DNA from: an uncultured Coriobacteriaceae bacterium
Lineage (GTDB): Bacteria; Actinomycetota; Coriobacteriia; Coriobacteriales; Atopobiaceae
Assembly: GCA_902788705.1 (NCBI GenBank)
Contig: CADALE010000006.1
Location: forward strand, 1-64,000
Reading direction: 5' to 3'
Length of the DNA: 64,000 nucleotides
Below, piece by piece: positions 27,862-57,806 of the stretch. Each line of letters starts with the position of its first letter. Within the stretch, counting starts at the first letter, position 1. The notes below the pieces were generated by a model. That model was not told the origin of the DNA, did not search any database, and saw only the letters and a list, made by a program, of their open reading frames with translations. The translations under genes and the position numbers were made by a program.

Positions 27862-29952
27862 ATGGCCAAGGACAAGGTGAGCGCGGAGTTCGGCGAGCTG
27901 CTCTTCACGGACGCCGACATGCAGGAGCGCCTGCCCAAGCCGACCTATCGCGAGCTGATGCAGGTCATCAAGGACGGCAAAGCGCTCGACCTCGACATCG
28001 CCAACGAGGTGGCCCACGCCATGAAGGAGTGGGCGCTCGAGAAGGGCGCCACGCACTTCACCCACTGGTTCCAGCCACTGACGGGCATCACGAGCGAGAA
28101 GCACGACAGCTTCCTCACGCCCAACGGCGACGGAACCATCCTCATGGCCTTCAGCGGCAAGGAGCTGGTGCAGGGCGAGCCCGACGCGTCAAGCTTCCCC
28201 AGCGGCGGCCTGCGTGCCACCTTCGAGGCGCGCGGATACACCGTGTGGGACCCCACCAGCCCCGCCTTCATCAAGGACGAGGTTCTGTGCATCCCCACCG
28301 CATTCATCAGCTACACCGGCGAGGCCCTGGACAAGAAGACGCCTCTGCTGCGCAGCCAGGTGGCGCTCGAGGCACAGGCCAAGCGGGTGCTTGCGCTCTT
28401 CGGCCGCGAGCCGCATCGCGTCACCACCACCATTGGCCCCGAGCAGGAGTACTTCCTCATCAAGGAGAGCGACTACGCGGCCCGTCCCGACCTCATCCTC
28501 ACCGGACGCACGCTCTTTGGCTGCGCGCCGGTAAAGGGGCAGGAGCTGGAGGAGCACTACTTCGGTGCGATCCGTCCCACGGTGAACGAGTTCATGAAGG
28601 AGCTGGACGACGAGCTCTGGAAGCTAGGCATCCCCGCGAAGACCAAGCACAACGAGGTGGCGCCGTGCCAGCACGAGCTTGCCCCGATCTTCGAGGAGGG
28701 CTCTGTCGCCATTGACGACAACCTGCTGACCATGGAGAAGATGAAGCTGCTGGCCAGCCACCATGGCCTGGTGTGCCTGCAGCACGAGAAGCCGTTCGAG
28801 TACGTGAACGGCTCGGGCAAGCACAACAACTGGTCCATCTCGGCTGATGGTCGCAACCTCCTGGAGCCTGGCCCGCACCCTGAGGACAACCTACAGTTCC
28901 TGGTGTTCCTTGCCATGCTGGTGGCCGCCGTCGACGAGCACGCCGACCTGATGCGCATGAGCGTGGCCTCCGCCGGCAACGACCATCGCCTTGGCGCCAA
29001 CGAGGCGCCTCCGGCCATCGTGTCGGTGTTCCTTGGCGACGCGCTCTCACCTGTGGTGGACGCGCTCATCAAGAAGGAGAGCGTGGAGGCGGCCGAAGCC
29101 ACCACCATCGACCTGGGCATCCCGCAGCTGCCGCCCGTGCTGCAGGACAACACCGACCGCAACCGCACCTCGCCCTTCGCCTTTACCGGCAACAAGTTCG
29201 AGTTTCGCATGCCGGGCAGCCAGCAGAACCTGTCCGACCCCAACGTGGTGCTCAACACGGCGGTGGCCGAGCAGTGCGAGCGCTTCGTGGACTACGTGGC
29301 CGCCCGGTCCGACGAGCCGTTTCTGACGGTGGCCATGCGCTTCGTGCGCCACACCTTCCGCGACCACCAGCGCATCATCTTCGACGGCAACGGCTACTCG
29401 TCCGAATGGGAGGAGGAGGCGCACCGTCGCGGCCTGCCCAACCTCAAGACCACGCCTGACGCGCTTGCGGCCCTCATGGATGCCGACAACATCGCGCTCT
29501 TCGAGAGGTATGGCGTGCTGACCGAGGCCGAGCTGCACGCGCGCTTCGTGGCCAAGGCCGAGCAGTATGCCAAGCTCATAAACATCGAGGCCAACTGCAT
29601 GGTGGACATGGCGCGGCGCCTGTATGTACCTGCCATTTCGTCGTATGCGGGCGACCTTGCCACCGCGGTGGCGGCCAAGGCCGAGCTTGGCGTGGCGAGC
29701 AAGGCCGAGAAGGCTCTCGTGGCGCGGCTGACCTCGGGGATCGACGCCGTGTGGCATCTGGCGGACGAGCTTGAGGAGGCTGCGTCGAAGGCCTCTGCAG
29801 CAACGAATCCGGCCGAGCAGGACATGCTGTGCCGCGACGAGGTGATTGCCGCCATGGAGGCCCTGCGCGCCGAGGTGGATGCGCTCGAGCCCGTGGTGGG
29901 CGACCGCTGGTGGCCCGTGCCGACGTACAACACCATGCTGTACTACGTCTAG
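27862..29952 (+). CDS. glnN: glutamine synthetase type III
   Basis: Makes glutamine from glutamate, ammonia and ATP. At 696 residues it has GSIII length (about twice GSI). Catalytic motifs are intact: [23 protein letters not shown], the His of [10 protein letters not shown], and [10 protein letters not shown]. The type III N-terminal extension ([13 protein letters not shown]) and C-terminal helical region are present. AGAAAGGGGAAC precedes ATG 27862. Since the GSI homologue at 3450 has lost metal ligands, this is probably the working enzyme, at least within this window. A structured repeat begins 18 nt after its stop. Confidence 0.96.
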
Positions 29953-29970: not shown

Positions 29971-30040
29971 GTCGGGGCCTCTGCCTGTGCTCGGCTCAGC
30001 GCTTCGCGGATGTCGCCGACGCACAGGCGGAGGCCCCGAC
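29971..30040. repeat. conserved-loop hairpin, copy A
   Basis: Arm 1 at 29971-29995 pairs with arm 2 at 30015-30040 (24 Watson-Crick pairs, one G-T, one bulged C at 30020). The 19-nt loop is TCAGCGCTTCGCGGATGTC. The same loop, with a different but equally complementary stem and the same bulged C five pairs from the loop, occurs at 50926-50997. There is no T-run, so it is not a standard terminator. Function unknown. Confidence 0.9.
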
Positions 30041-30229
30041 GCGTCACTGCGGGCTGCCTCCGGCGTGGGAGACTTAGTGCTTCGCGGATGTCGCCGACGC
30101 ACAGGCGGAGGCCCCGACGCGTCACTGCGGGCTGCCTCCGGCGTGGGAGACTTAGTGCTTCGCGGATGTCGCCTGCGCACAGGCGGAGGCCCCGACGCGT
30201 CACTGCGGGCTGCCTCCGGCGTGGGGGAG
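30001..30229. repeat. three 78-bp tandem repeats
   Basis: Units start at 30001, 30079 and 30157 with GCTTCGCGGATGTCGCC and are nearly identical; the first contains the loop and arm 2 of hairpin A. Units 2 and 3 have loop variants TTAGTGCTTCGCGGATGTC and lack the matching arm 1, so they form only a short CGGAGGC/GCCTCCG stem. The 78-bp length keeps reading frames open on both strands, but no start or ribosome site supports translation. Confidence 0.92.
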
Positions 30230-30353: not shown

Positions 30354-31052
30354 ATGGCCAACGACCCCGAGCTCGCACGATACAGCGCCCAGATGGACGA
30401 GGCCCAGCGCGACATCGACCGCGCCAAGGATCGCCTGCAGCGCGCAAAGCAGGACCGCGATGCGTTGCGGTCCACCTTGGACGGGGTGCGTGCGCGCATC
30501 GATGACCTCAAGCGCTCCGTTGCCAACGAGCGCGAGGCGGCGCGCTACTGCTCGCAGAACCACGACCGCATCAGCGCCCAGAACCACCGCTACAATGCCG
30601 ACGGCTTCAAGCGTGTCCTCGACGACCAGTACGCCATCAAGAACAGCTATGCCGAGCAGATGTCCCGCTACCGTGCCGAGGTGGATGCGGCGCGCGCCGA
30701 GCTTGATGCCGCGAAGGCCCGAAAGCAGCAGGCACGGGAGGCGTTCCAGGCGCGCCTTGCGCAGCTGAGGGCCCAGAAGGCCGAGCGCGACGCCAAGTGG
30801 CGCGAGAAGCCCTGCGCCATCTGTGGCCAGACGCTGCGCTACAACGTGGACTGGACGCACATCCCAAGCGTGCACCGCGAGTGCCGCGAGCGCCAGAAGG
30901 CCGAGCGCGACGCCAGGTGGCGCGAGAAGCCCTGCGCCATCTGTGGCCAGGCGCTGCGCTACAACGTGGACTGGACGCACATCCCCAATGTCCATCGCGA
31001 GTGCCGCGAGCGTGCCGCCGCAGAGCGTGCCGCACGAAGCGCAAGGGCCTAG
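30354..31052 (+). CDS. coiled-coil protein with duplicated zinc-binding module
   Basis: A 232-residue protein. Residues about 1-140 form a charged coiled coil (RDIDRAKDRLQRAKQDRDAL). Residues about 141-220 are two copies of a 40-residue module WREKPCAICGQTLRYNVDWTHIPSVHRECRER (written here as WREKPCAICGQ and VHRECRER around a Trp/Thr/His core), with Cys-x2-Cys and His-x3-Cys ligands. The modules differ at very few positions and are encoded by a 120-bp tandem repeat. The ribosome site ACGGAGGAC precedes ATG 30354. It resembles treble-clef fingers but I do not recognise the family. The next gene starts 9 nt downstream. Confidence 0.75.
   Translation: MANDPELARYSAQMDEAQRDIDRAKDRLQRAKQDRDALRSTLDGVRARIDDLKRSVANEREAARYCSQNHDRISAQNHRYNADGFKRVLDDQYAIKNSYAEQMSRYRAEVDAARAELDAAKARKQQAREAFQARLAQLRAQKAERDAKWREKPCAICGQTLRYNVDWTHIPSVHRECRERQKAERDARWREKPCAICGQALRYNVDWTHIPNVHRECRERAAAERAARSARA
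30773..31012 (+). repeat. 120-bp tandem duplication inside the zinc-module gene
   Basis: Copy 1 30773-30892, copy 2 30893-31012, exactly 40 codons each and nearly identical at the nucleotide level, including silent positions; a recent in-frame duplication. Confidence 0.93.
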
Positions 31053-49360: not shown

Positions 49361-49464
49361 GTGTGTTGGGACCCCTGAGGCCCTTGGCCCGCTACCATAG
49401 GGCTGCATGAGAAGTCTTTGGTAGCGGCGGCGTGCGTCGCCCTCCTGCCAGAAAGGGGATTGCG

Positions 49465-50913
49465 ATGATTGACGAGGCGTTCAAGGCTCAGGTTGACCGA
49501 TATGTGGACGAGGTGTGGGAGGACGTCGTCGAGGACATCCGCTCACTCGTGCGCATCGACTCGGTCGAGGACCTCGCTGCGGCCGAGCCCGGAAAGCCGT
49601 GGGGCCCAGCCGCCTACGATGCCCTCGCGAAGGGGCTGGAGATAGCCTCGCACATCGGCCTTGAGGCCCATGACTGCGATGGCTACATCGGCTATGCCGA
49701 CCTTGCCGGCGAGTCGAGCAGGCAGATTGCCACCATCGCCCATACCGATATCGTGCCGACGGGCCTTGGCTGGACGGTTCCCGCGCTCGACGTGACGCGC
49801 AGGGATGGCTATCTGCTGGGACGTGGCGTGCTGGACGACAAGGGCCCCTTCGTGCTTTCGCTGTATGCCGCCAAGTTCTTCGTAGACCAGGTGGCGCGCA
49901 CGGGCAAGCGCCTGCCCTATACGATTCGCTGCATCGTGGGCAACAACGAGGAGACCTCGATGGCTGATGTCGAGTGGTATCTCGAGCACTTCGAGGCGCC
50001 TGCCTTCTGCTTCACTCCCGATGCCGACTTCCCGCTCATCTGTGGCGAGAAGGGCATCCTGCATGGCGTCTTCCGCACCAATGGCGCCGTGGCAGGCGAG
50101 GGACAGCCTATCGCGAAGCTGGACGGCGGCACCGTGCCCAACGCCATCCCGGGCCTCGCGACCGCCCTCGTCCGCGAGGATGCTGCCGACTTCCTGCTTA
50201 CGCGCTGCACCATGGGCATCGAGGCGAATGCCACGGAGGACGGCCTCGTGCAGGTCACGTCCCATGGCATCGGCGGGCACGCGGCCTTCCCCCAGGGGAC
50301 GGACAACGCCATCGGAAAGCTCGTGCGCCTCATGCTCGAGCAAGAGGGCGGGCCGGCTGGCTCGTCCGCCCAGACCCTTGCGTTCCTGAGGCTCGTCGAG
50401 CAGCTTACGCGCACGAGCGACGGCAGCGCCTTGGGCATCGACTCGTCCGACGAGGTGTTTGGCGCGCTCACGCTTAACGCGGGCGTGATCCGCACGCTTG
50501 ACGACGGAAGCTGCACCATCACGGTGGACGTGCGCTATCCCAGCTCCATCACCTCTGACGAGGTGTTTGCTGCCTTCGAGGCCCTTGCTGACACGCACGG
50601 CTGCAGCTTTGAGCGGGGCATGGCCCAGGTGCCGTTTTACATGGACCCCAGCCTGCCAGCCATCCAGACGCTGCTGGGCACCTACAACGAGTACATGGGC
50701 ACGAACAAGGAAGCCTTCGTCATCGGTGGTGGCACCTATGCGCGTCACTTCCCGCGTGCCTGCGCGTTTGGTCCGCACGACCCGAGCGTGGTCGACCCCG
50801 AGTGGGTGGGCATCGAGCACGGTCCCGACGAGGGCGTGAGCGAGGAGTGCCTGCGCCGCGCGCTGAAGATCTATATCGTGTCGATCGCACGCCTGATGGA
50901 GCTCGACCTGTAG
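49465..50913 (+). CDS. M20 family dipeptidase (PepV/Sapep type)
   Basis: A 482-residue zinc dipeptidase. Metal and catalytic motifs: AHTDIVPTG (His, Asp), GRGVLDDKGP (bridging Asp), NNEETSMADV (Glu pair) and, near the end, IGGGTYARHFP with a later His. A lid domain lies at about 200-380 (SHGIGGHAAFP). The start at 49465 follows AGAAAGGGGA; TACCAT at 49393 may be the -10. Peptide use fits an amino-acid-fermenting anaerobe. A structured repeat begins 13 nt after the stop. Confidence 0.92.
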   Translation: MIDEAFKAQVDRYVDEVWEDVVEDIRSLVRIDSVEDLAAAEPGKPWGPAAYDALAKGLEIASHIGLEAHDCDGYIGYADLAGESSRQIATIAHTDIVPTGLGWTVPALDVTRRDGYLLGRGVLDDKGPFVLSLYAAKFFVDQVARTGKRLPYTIRCIVGNNEETSMADVEWYLEHFEAPAFCFTPDADFPLICGEKGILHGVFRTNGAVAGEGQPIAKLDGGTVPNAIPGLATALVREDAADFLLTRCTMGIEANATEDGLVQVTSHGIGGHAAFPQGTDNAIGKLVRLMLEQEGGPAGSSAQTLAFLRLVEQLTRTSDGSALGIDSSDEVFGALTLNAGVIRTLDDGSCTITVDVRYPSSITSDEVFAAFEALADTHGCSFERGMAQVPFYMDPSLPAIQTLLGTYNEYMGTNKEAFVIGGGTYARHFPRACAFGPHDPSVVDPEWVGIEHGPDEGVSEECLRRALKIYIVSIARLMELDL

Positions 50914-50925
50914 CCCACGAGCTTG

Positions 50926-50997
50926 GGCCTGCGCGTCGAGCTGCCGTGGGCTCAGCGCTTCGCGGATGTCGCCCACCGGCAGGTCGACGCGCAGGCC
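50926..50997. repeat. conserved-loop hairpin, copy B
   Basis: Arm 1 at 50926-50951 pairs with arm 2 at 50971-50997 (one mismatch, one bulged C at 50976). The loop, 50952-50970, is TCAGCGCTTCGCGGATGTC, identical to hairpin A at 29971-30040, while the stem sequence is unrelated. The bulge lies five pairs from the loop in both. It starts 13 nt after the peptidase stop. Confidence 0.9.
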
Positions 50998-51300
50998 TCC
51001 CGCCCAACGCGGGCCACGTCCTCGCGGCGTGGGGGATTATGGTGAGGGGCGCCCTCGGGCGCCCCTCCCACCGCCCTGGGCCCGGCGCTCCGCGGATGTC
51101 GCCCACCGGCAGGTCGACGCGCAGGCCTCCCGCCCAACGCGGGCCACGTCCTCGCGGCGTGGTGGGGATGGCGAGGGGCGCCCTCGGGCGCCCCTCCCAC
51201 CGCCCTGGGCCCAGCGCTTCGCGGATGTCGCCCACCGGCAGGTCGACGCGCAGGCTTCCCGCCCAACGCGGGCTACGGCCTCGCGGCGTGGGGGATTATG
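50952..51300. repeat. three tandem units of 129-130 bp
   Basis: Loop-like starts at 50952, 51082 and 51211 (TCAGCGCTTCGCGG, CCGGCGCTCCGCGG, CCAGCGCTTCGCGG, each then ATGTCGCCCACCGG). Each unit contains further hairpins, including GAGGGGCGCC-CTCG-GGCGCCCCTC and CCACG...CGTGG. The inner stem TGGGC/GCCCA is kept in all units. A block at 51010-51040 (CGGGC...TCC...GGCGTGGGGGATTA) matches the tail of the 78-bp units at 30050-30076. Confidence 0.92.
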
Positions 51301-51332
51301 GTGAGGGGCGCCATGGCGCCCCTCTCATTGTT

Positions 51333-51364
51333 CATGGGCTCAGCGCTTCGCGCTACCGCCCATG
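51333..51364. repeat. degenerate fourth copy of the conserved-loop hairpin
   Basis: CATGGGC (51333-51339) and GCCCATG (51358-51364) pair perfectly around TCAGCGCTTCGCGCTACC, an 18-nt loop that keeps the first 13 bases of the family loop but not GATGTC. GACATCCGC at 51396 is an inverted copy of the loop end. Confidence 0.7.
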
Positions 51365-55283: not shown

Positions 55284-57806
55284 ATGGTCGAGGAGAAGAC
55301 GCTGGACCAGCAGGCCCTCCACGAGGAGTGCTGCTGCGACCACGACCACAACCACGAGCAAGGCGAGTCGTGCTGCTGCGAGCACGAGCATCACCACGAG
55401 CATGAAGAGTCATGCTGCTGCGAGCACGAGCATCACCACGAGCATGAGGACCACTGCGGCTGTGGCCACGACCACGAGCATGATCACTGCTGCTGCGACC
55501 ACGACCACGACCATGAGGACGCCTGCGGCTGCGGCCACGAGCATGGTCACCACCACCATCGCGACCACTGTGGCTGCGGCTGCGACCACGACCATGACGA
55601 GGCGCCAGAGACCCGCGAGCTCTCGGCGGCGCCAACCTTCAGCTACCACGTGCTGGACATCGACTGTCCTCACTGCGCCATGGGCGTGCAGAACGCGGTG
55701 CGTGCGCTGCCCAGCGTGGCCGACGCGCGGCTGGTCTATGCCACGTCCACGCTCGACGTGGTCATGGCCGAGGGAGCCTCCTCGTACGAGTGCCGTCGGG
55801 CCATCCTCGAGACGGTCCGCTCCATCGGGCAGGACCTCGAGCTCTCCGACGAGGAGCGCGAGGAGCTCTCGGCCCAGCGCTCCTGGTACCAGGAGAACCG
55901 CGAGCGCGTGCTCATGTCGATTTCCGGGGCGATGCTGGTGGCAGGGCTCGTGACCGAGCACCTCATGGGCAGCGAGGCACGCGCCATCCCCTTCTACGTG
56001 CTGGCAGCCCTGGCCGGGCTCGTCTTCGTGGCCCCGATGGCGCTGGCGTCGCTGCGGCGTCGCACGGCTGACATGAACGTGCTCATGGGCATCGCGGTCA
56101 TCGGCGGCCTCATCATGGGCTTCTCGGGCGACACCTCCACCTTTGGCGACGCCGCCATCGTCATCTTCCTGGACCAGGTGGGCGAGTGGCTCGAGGGCTG
56201 GTCGATGCGCAAGACGTCGGGATCCATCAAGAACCTGATGCAGCTTGCGCCAGACCTCGCCCACGTCATCTCCGACGGCGGCGTGCACGATGTCGAGGTG
56301 TCCAGCGTGGAGGAGGGCGAGCGCATCCGGGTGCTCCCGGGCGAGCGCGTGCCCCTCGACGGCATCATCCTCACGGGCAGCTCGTCGTTCAACGAGGCTG
56401 CCATCACGGGAGAGAGCACGCCCAAGGACAAGGGCGAGGGCGACGAGGTGTACGCCGGCTCCCTCAACACGAGCGGCGTCGTCGAGCTCGAGGTGACGGC
56501 TGACGAGGACTGCACGATGCTCGCGCGCATCGTCTCGATGGTGCAGGGCGCTCAGGCCGAGAAGGCTCCCTATGAGAGCTTCGTGGACCGCTTTGCTGCG
56601 GTGTACACGCCCATCGTGGTGTGCTGCGCGGCCGTGGTGGGCCTTGCGGTGCCGCTGGTGCTCTCTGCCTTGGTGGGCTTCTCAGGCCAGCTCTGGCACG
56701 ACTGGGTGTACCGCGCGCTGTCGCTGCTGGTGGTTGCCTGCCCCTGCGCCCTGGTCATCTCCACGCCCGTCTCGTTCGTCTCGGCCATCACCCGCGCCGC
56801 CAACAACGGCGTGCTGGTGAAGGGTGGCGCCTATTTCGACATCGCCAGCAAGGTCACGGCCATGGCCTTCGACAAGACCGGCACCCTCACCACCGGCAAC
56901 CCCTCGGTCGTCGCGGTGCGCTGCGCTGACGGTGCGTCCCAGGACGACGTGCTGGCCATCGCCCATGCGCTGGAGGAGTCGTCCACGCACCCGCTGGCCC
57001 GCGCCGTGGCTGCCCACGCGCATCAGCTGGGCATTCCCGAGGTAGGCGCGAGCGACGTGCAGGAGGTCGCGGCCAATGGCGTGCGCGGCACCGTGGGCAG
57101 CGAGGCATGCGCCATCGGCAAGCTGGCCTTCGCCGCCGAGCAGGCGCACGTGTCGGCGCAGGTGGAGCAGGCGGTGGCGGAGGTGGCCCAGCTTGGTGCC
57201 ACGGCGCTCGTGGTCACGAGGGGCGACGAGGCGATCGGCGTCATCGGCGTGGCCGACGCCATCCGCCCCGAGGCGCCGGCCGCGATGGCCGACCTGCGTG
57301 GCGTCGCGCGGATCAAGACCCTCGAGATGCTCACGGGCGACATCCGCCAGGCGGCCGAGGCGGTGGCGCGCCAGGTGGGCATGACCCACGCCGTGTCCGA
57401 GCTGCTGCCCGACGGCAAGGTGCAGTACGTGCGCGACCTGCAGCAGCAGGGCGAGGTGGTGGCCATGGTGGGCGACGGCATCAACGATGCGCCTGCGCTG
57501 GCCACGGCAGACCTCGCCATTACGATGGGCGCCGCCGCATCCGACACGGCACTCGAGGTGGCCGACGTGGCGCTGCTCTCCGACGACCTCGCGCAGCTCC
57601 CGCGCTTCTTCGCGCTCTCGGTGCGCACCATGCACATCGTGACCGAGAACATCGTCTTCGCCATCCTGGTCAAGGCCCTCGTCTTCGTGCTGGTCATCGC
57701 CGGGGTCGCGGGCATGGGTGCCGCGGTCTTCGCCGACACGGGCGTGGCGCTGCTCGTCATCCTGAACGGCCTGCGCCTCATGGTGGACTCGCGCCAGCCC
57801 TGGTAG
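55284..57806 (+). CDS. Zn/Cd/Pb-type P1B ATPase with His/Cys-rich head
   Basis: An 840-residue metal exporter. The first 105 residues are extraordinarily rich in His, Cys, Asp and Glu (CCCEHEHHHEHE repeats, CGCGHDHEHDH) with about 19 cysteines, a metal-binding head. An HMA domain (LDIDCPHCAMGVQ) follows, then membrane helices with CPC motif ACPCALVISTP, DKTGT, HP motif ESSTHPLARAV and GDGINDAPALA. This pattern is that of ZntA/CadA exporters. ATG 55284 follows AAGGAAGGGGAG at the end of arsR. Zinc is the most likely substrate; cadmium and lead cannot be excluded. Confidence 0.93.
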   Translation: MVEEKTLDQQALHEECCCDHDHNHEQGESCCCEHEHHHEHEESCCCEHEHHHEHEDHCGCGHDHEHDHCCCDHDHDHEDACGCGHEHGHHHHRDHCGCGCDHDHDEAPETRELSAAPTFSYHVLDIDCPHCAMGVQNAVRALPSVADARLVYATSTLDVVMAEGASSYECRRAILETVRSIGQDLELSDEEREELSAQRSWYQENRERVLMSISGAMLVAGLVTEHLMGSEARAIPFYVLAALAGLVFVAPMALASLRRRTADMNVLMGIAVIGGLIMGFSGDTSTFGDAAIVIFLDQVGEWLEGWSMRKTSGSIKNLMQLAPDLAHVISDGGVHDVEVSSVEEGERIRVLPGERVPLDGIILTGSSSFNEAAITGESTPKDKGEGDEVYAGSLNTSGVVELEVTADEDCTMLARIVSMVQGAQAEKAPYESFVDRFAAVYTPIVVCCAAVVGLAVPLVLSALVGFSGQLWHDWVYRALSLLVVACPCALVISTPVSFVSAITRAANNGVLVKGGAYFDIASKVTAMAFDKTGTLTTGNPSVVAVRCADGASQDDVLAIAHALEESSTHPLARAVAAHAHQLGIPEVGASDVQEVAANGVRGTVGSEACAIGKLAFAAEQAHVSAQVEQAVAEVAQLGATALVVTRGDEAIGVIGVADAIRPEAPAAMADLRGVARIKTLEMLTGDIRQAAEAVARQVGMTHAVSELLPDGKVQYVRDLQQQGEVVAMVGDGINDAPALATADLAITMGAAASDTALEVADVALLSDDLAQLPRFFALSVRTMHIVTENIVFAILVKALVFVLVIAGVAGMGAAVFADTGVALLVILNGLRLMVDSRQPW
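55365..55448 (+). repeat. 42-bp tandem repeat encoding the His/Cys-rich head
   Basis: Units 55365-55406 and 55407-55448 encode ESCCCEHEHHHEHE twice, with two to three base differences; degenerate copies continue to about 55600. Confidence 0.9.

Follow-up and report, generated by a model that had tools for sequence, protein, structure and literature searches.

How two hairpins in one bacterial genome come to share an identical loop while the stems beneath it are unrelated is the question raised by this locus. The window, the whole stretch of 64,000 nucleotides analysed here, lies on contig C6 of a 2.64-Mb Atopobiaceae genome. It carries two plus-strand hairpins, copy A at 29971–30040 and copy B at 50927–50996, which have the core TCAGCGCTTCGCGGATGTC exactly in common where 0.04 matches (up to three mismatches) are expected by chance. 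Their stems of 20–25 bp are unrelated in sequence yet near-perfectly paired. Each hairpin has a single bulged C at position 6 of the 3′ side, begins shortly after a stop codon (18 nt for copy A, 13 nt for copy B) and lacks a T-run after the stem. These features had been described in an initial annotation made from the sequence, and all of them were recovered here. Folding yields minimum free energies of −58.9 kcal/mol (z −9.1) for copy A and −56.0 kcal/mol (z −6.4) for copy B.

Copy A follows glnN (27862–29952, plus strand), which encodes a type III glutamine synthetase with Pfam GSIII_N and Gln-synt_C domains and whose product is ~80% identical to GlnN of Olsenella sp. Marseille-P4559 and of rumen MAGs. 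Its 20-bp stem is formed by a 5′ arm at 29971–29990 and a 3′ arm at 30021–30040, enclosing a conserved tip, TCGGC-TCAGCGCTTCGCGGATGTC-GCCGAC, at 29991–30020 (core 29996–30014, bulged C 30020). Copy B is built in the same way behind a gene for a Sapep-family dipeptidase (49432–50913, plus strand; NCBIfam TIGR01887 above cut-off), with arms at 50927–50946 and 50977–50996 and the tip TGGGC-TCAGCGCTTCGCGGATGTC-GCCCAC at 50947–50976 (core 50952–50970, bulged C 50976).

Both hairpins run into plus-strand tandem repeats detected by TRF. At copy A, a 78-bp unit spanning the loop, the 3′ arm and downstream sequence, without the 5′ arm, is repeated 2.9 times at 30001–30225 (98% matches). At copy B, a 129-bp unit is repeated 3.2 times at 50943–51352, with degenerate tips at 51082 and 51211. 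The repeats behind both copies hold only the loop and 3′ arm. Loops with unpaired flanks, which had been named beforehand as evidence against the hairpins, do occur in these repeats; as local duplications they do not refute the pairing of the full copies. A small plus-strand hairpin with a truncated tip, ATGGGC-TCAGCGCTTCGCGCTACC-GCCCAT, was recognised by pattern match in the sequence at 51334–51363. There is also a second, ordinary hairpin, GAGGGGCGCC-CTCG-GGCGCCCCTC, at 51044–51067 (plus strand), with GGGGGATTATGGT just before it and a repeat at 51303. Several tipped hairpins have, 60–220 nt behind them, a CGTGGGGAAGATGGTG-like box with an ordinary hairpin after it, namely at window 51044–51067, L137 at 7136, L138 at 9289 and L136 at 7021, and in relatives the ordinary hairpin sometimes has a T-run. 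Elsewhere in the window, a 120-bp tandem duplication within an ORF (30773–31012) doubles a zinc-ribbon-like CAICGQTLRYNVDWTHIP..HRECRER segment, and coding tandem repeats of 42 bp and 36 bp at 55329–55540 yield a Cys/His-rich stretch.

The search for further copies that had been suggested found the 19-nt core ten times exactly, at nine places in the genome, together with an eleventh, variant copy. Each exact occurrence is flanked by arms that pair and show no sequence similarity between copies, although the arms of the gyrB copy pair with a few mismatches. The host genes are glnN, the Sapep dipeptidase gene, nrdD, gyrB, gyrA, htpG and those for a PRC-barrel protein, a LuxR-type regulator and an NlpC/P60 protein. 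The tip common to the genome copies is TTCGC-TCAGCGCTTCGCGGATGTC-GCTNN, from which copies A and B are set apart by the pairing of this flank and by the bulged C. In seven clean copies, 17 of the 20 stem pairs have changed on both sides, the other three being constant C-G, and none of 500 shuffles reached the observed values. This is the excess of covariation expected of a structured RNA. However, an inverted duplication can produce the same covariation, so it should not naively be read as compensatory mutation under selection.

The eleventh copy (G000:C6:141701-141769, L268; minus strand, 24 bp) lies antisense and in frame within an ABC-transporter ORF, with a second hairpin of 13 bp alongside. 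The linker that holds it is longer than in 13 of 14 congeners; the exception, G014, also has a tipped hairpin there (L272). An inverted match of the linker to nearby coding DNA is short (25/28, z 1.3) and not significant.

The family extends well beyond this species, into gut relatives of Olsenella and Collinsella. A covariance model, another of the checks that had been proposed, was built from seven own-genome copies (R1) and detected copies in 11 of 18 congeners, whereupon the notion of a novelty confined to the one species was dropped. With E-values that are rough, strict filtering of the multi-genome searches and many MAGs among the genomes, a second model (R2) found the element in 69 of 140 genomes of the family (E ≤ 1e-3) and 83 of 299 genomes of the order (E ≤ 1e-5). 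All carriers belong to the Atopobiaceae and Coriobacteriaceae; outside these two families no match was found in a sample of 296 genomes of the phylum, which, being GC-rich and full of hairpins, doubles as a negative control. Among the carriers that have a name are Olsenella sp. SW781, with 19 matches, Olsenella sp. Marseille-P4559 and, from the second family, Collinsella aerofaciens (L077). The exact 21-mer had no match in the genome-contig collection, from which the own genome is possibly absent. Exact-loop or near matches in two congeners (L037, L038) and one viral contig (L052) are coding, have no long stem and were set aside as chance.

The initial annotation had called the loop invariant, and within this genome it is. 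In relatives, the constant part shrinks to GCUC(A)...(A)GUCGC, which in the aligned copies reads GCUC(A), an inner hairpin of 3–6 bp with a variable loop, then (A/G)A(G)UCGC. The general layout is GCUCA-inner hairpin-(A)AGUCGC, a tip of about 25–60 nt, on top of a ~20-bp stem of any sequence. The inner helix varies with its pairing kept, as CGC/GCG, CAC/GUG, CUGC/GCAG, CUGCGC/GCGCAG or UUGC/GCAA. Rfam gave no match in the window, and elsewhere only sub-threshold matches to miRNA families, that is, generic long hairpins. The L17 downstream element (PMC2864571) and Collinsella-1 (RF01700) are comparable as structured RNA candidates, the former in 3′ UTRs and the latter in Collinsella, but there is no Rfam match at gathering score and Collinsella-1 is absent even at E up to 5–10. 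No description of the element was found in the literature. The element is real, widespread and, as far as could be found, undescribed.

The copies occupy a characteristic position. In 54 of 68 non-redundant copies, the stem starts 0–35 nt after the stop codon of a long ORF on the same strand, most often ~23 nt after it, whereas on the opposite strand an ORF ends at that distance in only about five of the 68. Such strand-specific context is expected of a structured RNA, and the further copies and family-wide distribution support the earlier suggestion of a strand-specific structured 3′ element. A U-tract directly after the stem is lacking, with TTTT within 12 nt in 1 of 68 copies and T at 26% against a background of about 20%. 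The 5′ arm is pyrimidine-rich, with 6% A and with C/T at 95% at two positions counted from the tip. G-U wobbles are rare: among 1500 stem pairs, 1409 are Watson-Crick, 24 are G-U and 67 are mismatches.

What the stems are made of is clearest at gyrB. In six of seven occupied species, the sequence that follows the gyrB hairpin is the final ~40–150 nt of gyrB itself in decayed, reverse-complementary form (z 4.6–17.8). Aligned blocks have 83/96 identities in the own genome (z 10.9) and 110/128 in G003 (z 17.8), and the other five occupied species score z 9.2, 5.0, 4.7, 4.6 and 2.0. Across the family, inverted similarity between the flanks exceeds z 3 at 14 of 73 tipped hairpins but at only 1 of 33 ordinary hairpins (Mann-Whitney p 2.5e-4), and in direct orientation at 1 of 73. 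Other clear cases are L167, L219 and L203. No inverted copy beyond the stem was found at ~80% of tipped hairpins, copies A and B included, so the origin of these two is inferred from the family. A test of whether the gyrB copies match the allele of their own species gave opposite answers with different alignment targets, reversing when other species were aligned, and a claim of recent, repeated formation drawn from it was withdrawn.

At least part of the family thus consists, on the evidence of the alignments, of inverted duplications of the host gene end that pivot on the conserved tip. That local DNA has been copied in inverted orientation about such a tip accounts, at least partly, for stems that are unrelated and still pair. 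The initial annotation had taken different stems that still pair as strong evidence for a selected structure. This argument is not supported in that form: at gyrB the palindrome continues as the decayed inverted copy of the gene's own end and pairing can arise by copying; pairing alone is no proof of selection on structure. Selection or active correction is better supported by the contrast between the inner ~20 bp, ~96% paired across all copies, and the outer inverted copy, in which many indels and substitutions have accumulated. For this reason, the element is probably also kept as a 3′-UTR RNA. Differences between orthologous stems are almost all double changes, with hardly any single ones, and the gyrB copies of G005 and G012 have tips that share long identical ends on stems that differ at about half of their positions, both perfectly paired. 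It thus seems that the two arms of a stem are rewritten together, whether through template-switch correction (PMC7202029), renewed copying or strong selection, three routes that are inseparable here.

Comparison of orthologous sites adds a further aspect. The gyrB-gyrA spacer of six congeners is 41–80 nt long and holds no hairpin, while in seven species it is much longer, with a tipped hairpin 8–14 nt after the gyrB stop codon. Downstream of gyrA, a locus found in 16 congeners, each of these has a hairpin that begins ~20 nt past the stop codon. It is tipped in five (own genome, G002, G003, G007 and G014); in the rest it is ordinary and terminator-like, at 19–28 nt. Presence and absence at orthologous sites, together with the one copy inside coding sequence, do show mobile-like behaviour. 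A folded single-stranded DNA substrate for a recombinase or HUH-type nuclease, which the initial annotation had put forward as an alternative, is a candidate possibility.

The best reading of these results, held with moderate confidence, is that of an element centred on its tip, which arises by inverted duplication and leaves a paired hairpin in 3′ UTRs. On this view, local DNA, in most cases a gene's 3′ end plus the nucleotides just past its stop codon, would have been duplicated in inverted orientation about the tip. Most likely, either a 3′ DNA end bearing the tip folds back and primes synthesis or a polymerase switches template at the tip, the flank being copied in reverse in both cases. 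Each event would produce a perfectly paired stem unrelated in sequence to all others. Since one arm is coding and the other unconstrained, the outer part would later decay. The ~20 bp adjoining the tip would stay paired, and their transcription would yield a 3′-UTR or intra-operon hairpin that probably affects mRNA 3′-end processing or stability. This reading draws on the shared tip, the host-derived outer arms at a minority of sites, the empty and occupied orthologous sites and the bias of strand and position; from these, we infer the fold-back step, the means by which the tip spreads and the function as RNA. Counting against it are the ~80% of tipped hairpins that show no inverted copy past the stem, the non-significant match of the ABC-transporter linker, the pyrimidine-rich 5′ arm, which the copying of random local DNA leaves unexplained, and the presence of some hairpin in the same gyrA slot in every species. 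In a more far-reaching and tentative form, an active system in Atopobiaceae and Coriobacteriaceae may set the tip behind genes and copy the gene end backwards, repeatedly and at the same genes. Perfect 3′-UTR hairpins with host-derived stems would then keep arising from a mobile DNA or RNA that inherits only its turning point.

The main rival to tip-centred duplication is a conventional cis-acting 3′-UTR RNA, in which a protein or RNase binds the tip (a UCA/AAGUC internal loop and the inner hairpin) and compensatory mutation preserves the stem as an anonymous ~20-bp spacer; the RNA would set mRNA 3′ ends or stability. Strand bias and the fixed position after stop codons speak for it, as do an apex conserved across two families, covariation of both stem and inner stem, the unrelated housekeeping genes that the copies follow, the pyrimidine/purine strand bias of the stem and the pairing of the inner stem while the outer flanks decay. 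It also has a precedent in substrates of the yeast RNase III Rnt1p (PMC4334505), some of them in mRNAs, which likewise combine a conserved tip with an anonymous stem; the Rnt1p tip, however, is an NGNN tetraloop rather than an internal-loop motif, and the enzyme is eukaryotic. On its own, such an RNA leaves unexplained the inverted copies of gyrB ends, the empty sites free of hairpins and the copy inside an ORF. It also does not explain why all ten sites have identical 19-nt tips, including the non-essential triloop, when other species tolerate varied tips. It is held to be less probable than tip-centred duplication. The two readings are compatible, one concerning origin and the other present function. 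The internal loop of the commonest tip reads like positions 1406–1408/1492–1496 of the 16S rRNA decoding A-site (numbering as in PMC5774723). This likeness of letters may serve as a lead only; the tip has no G1405-C1496 pair and several species have other letters.

A mobile palindrome of REP or MITE type, moved as a unit with its own stem by a transposase (e.g. HUH), would fit the presence and absence at orthologous sites, the homogeneity of the tip within the genome and the copy inside an ORF. REP/RAYT elements (GTAG- and CGTC-tagged) are likewise short palindromes located mostly 3′ of coding regions, many likely transcribed, some in genes, at tens per genome (PMC3733652). However, REP families share stem as well as loop, being classed by a common stem sequence of 5–13 bp (PMC3733652), whereas the tipped hairpins have stems of about 20 bp or more that are unrelated between copies, with only the tip in common. 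No common tetranucleotide such as GTAG or CGTC was found at the stem foot in the flanks examined, no target duplication was seen, and outer arms match the host gene, which makes such an origin improbable. That the tip was inserted into loops of pre-existing intrinsic terminators, whose stems it now crowns, was raised by gyrA, where the tipped hairpin fills the slot of the congeners' ordinary terminator-like hairpins. It was rejected, as a very improbable reading, on the empty gyrB-gyrA sites, which lie inside an operon and have no hairpin of any kind; the single U-tract among 68 copies also argues against it. The same gyrA replacement and the position after stop codons would suit a terminator assisted by a factor, but several copies lie between likely operon genes (gyrB-gyrA, nrdD-nrdG) and about 10 of 68 have a canonical T-run terminator 40–90 nt downstream, and this too is considered highly unlikely.

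Among known processes, tip-centred duplication is closest to fold-back inverted duplications in yeast, which form by self-primed synthesis at short inverted repeats and have a palindrome centre with arms from the flanking DNA (PMC10622511). The continuation of the arm as an inverted copy of the flank, seen here at gyrB in six of seven species and at 14 of 73 hairpins overall, is not detectable for copies A and B. The centre in yeast is any repeat near a break, whereas here it is the same tip at one locus after another and in different species. Template switching at quasipalindromes in E. coli (PMC7202029) would keep inverted repeats perfect, with paired double changes and few wobbles, but needs a pre-existing inverted repeat and brings in no tip.

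To our knowledge, no bacterial repeat keeps its loop while taking its stem from the host, and a constant tip together with a mirror copy of the gene end is not accounted for by any bacterial repeat or RNA element of known type. If correct, the proposal describes a new route to structured 3′ UTRs, and bacteria would have a counterpart of the hairpin genes to which inverted duplications give rise. The proposal is also a warning that a copying process can generate covariation, the usual proof that an RNA structure is functional. The origin and the function of the element are both accessible to experiment, since cultured strains of Olsenella and Collinsella are among the carriers.

Other palindromes and repeats were seen in the own genome. 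On C8, L134:3047-3126 and L134:11642-11715 form a second palindromic family with a conserved stem of 23–26 bp, CGTACATCYGTGACGTTTC, and similar 28-nt loops, which is REP/MITE-like and unlike the tipped hairpins. C32 has, near a contig end, a further palindrome whose arms, at least 45 bp long, enclose a 23-nt loop (L138:13206-13318). Several diverged, partly inverted copies of CTTCCGACATATTGGGGGATGCGGGTGTCGG are present ~250–420 nt behind the tip of the C14 copy (L137), and repeated units like CGCGGGACAACGCACCCCGGGCGGGTGCGATG lie ~150–420 nt behind that of the C32 copy (L138).
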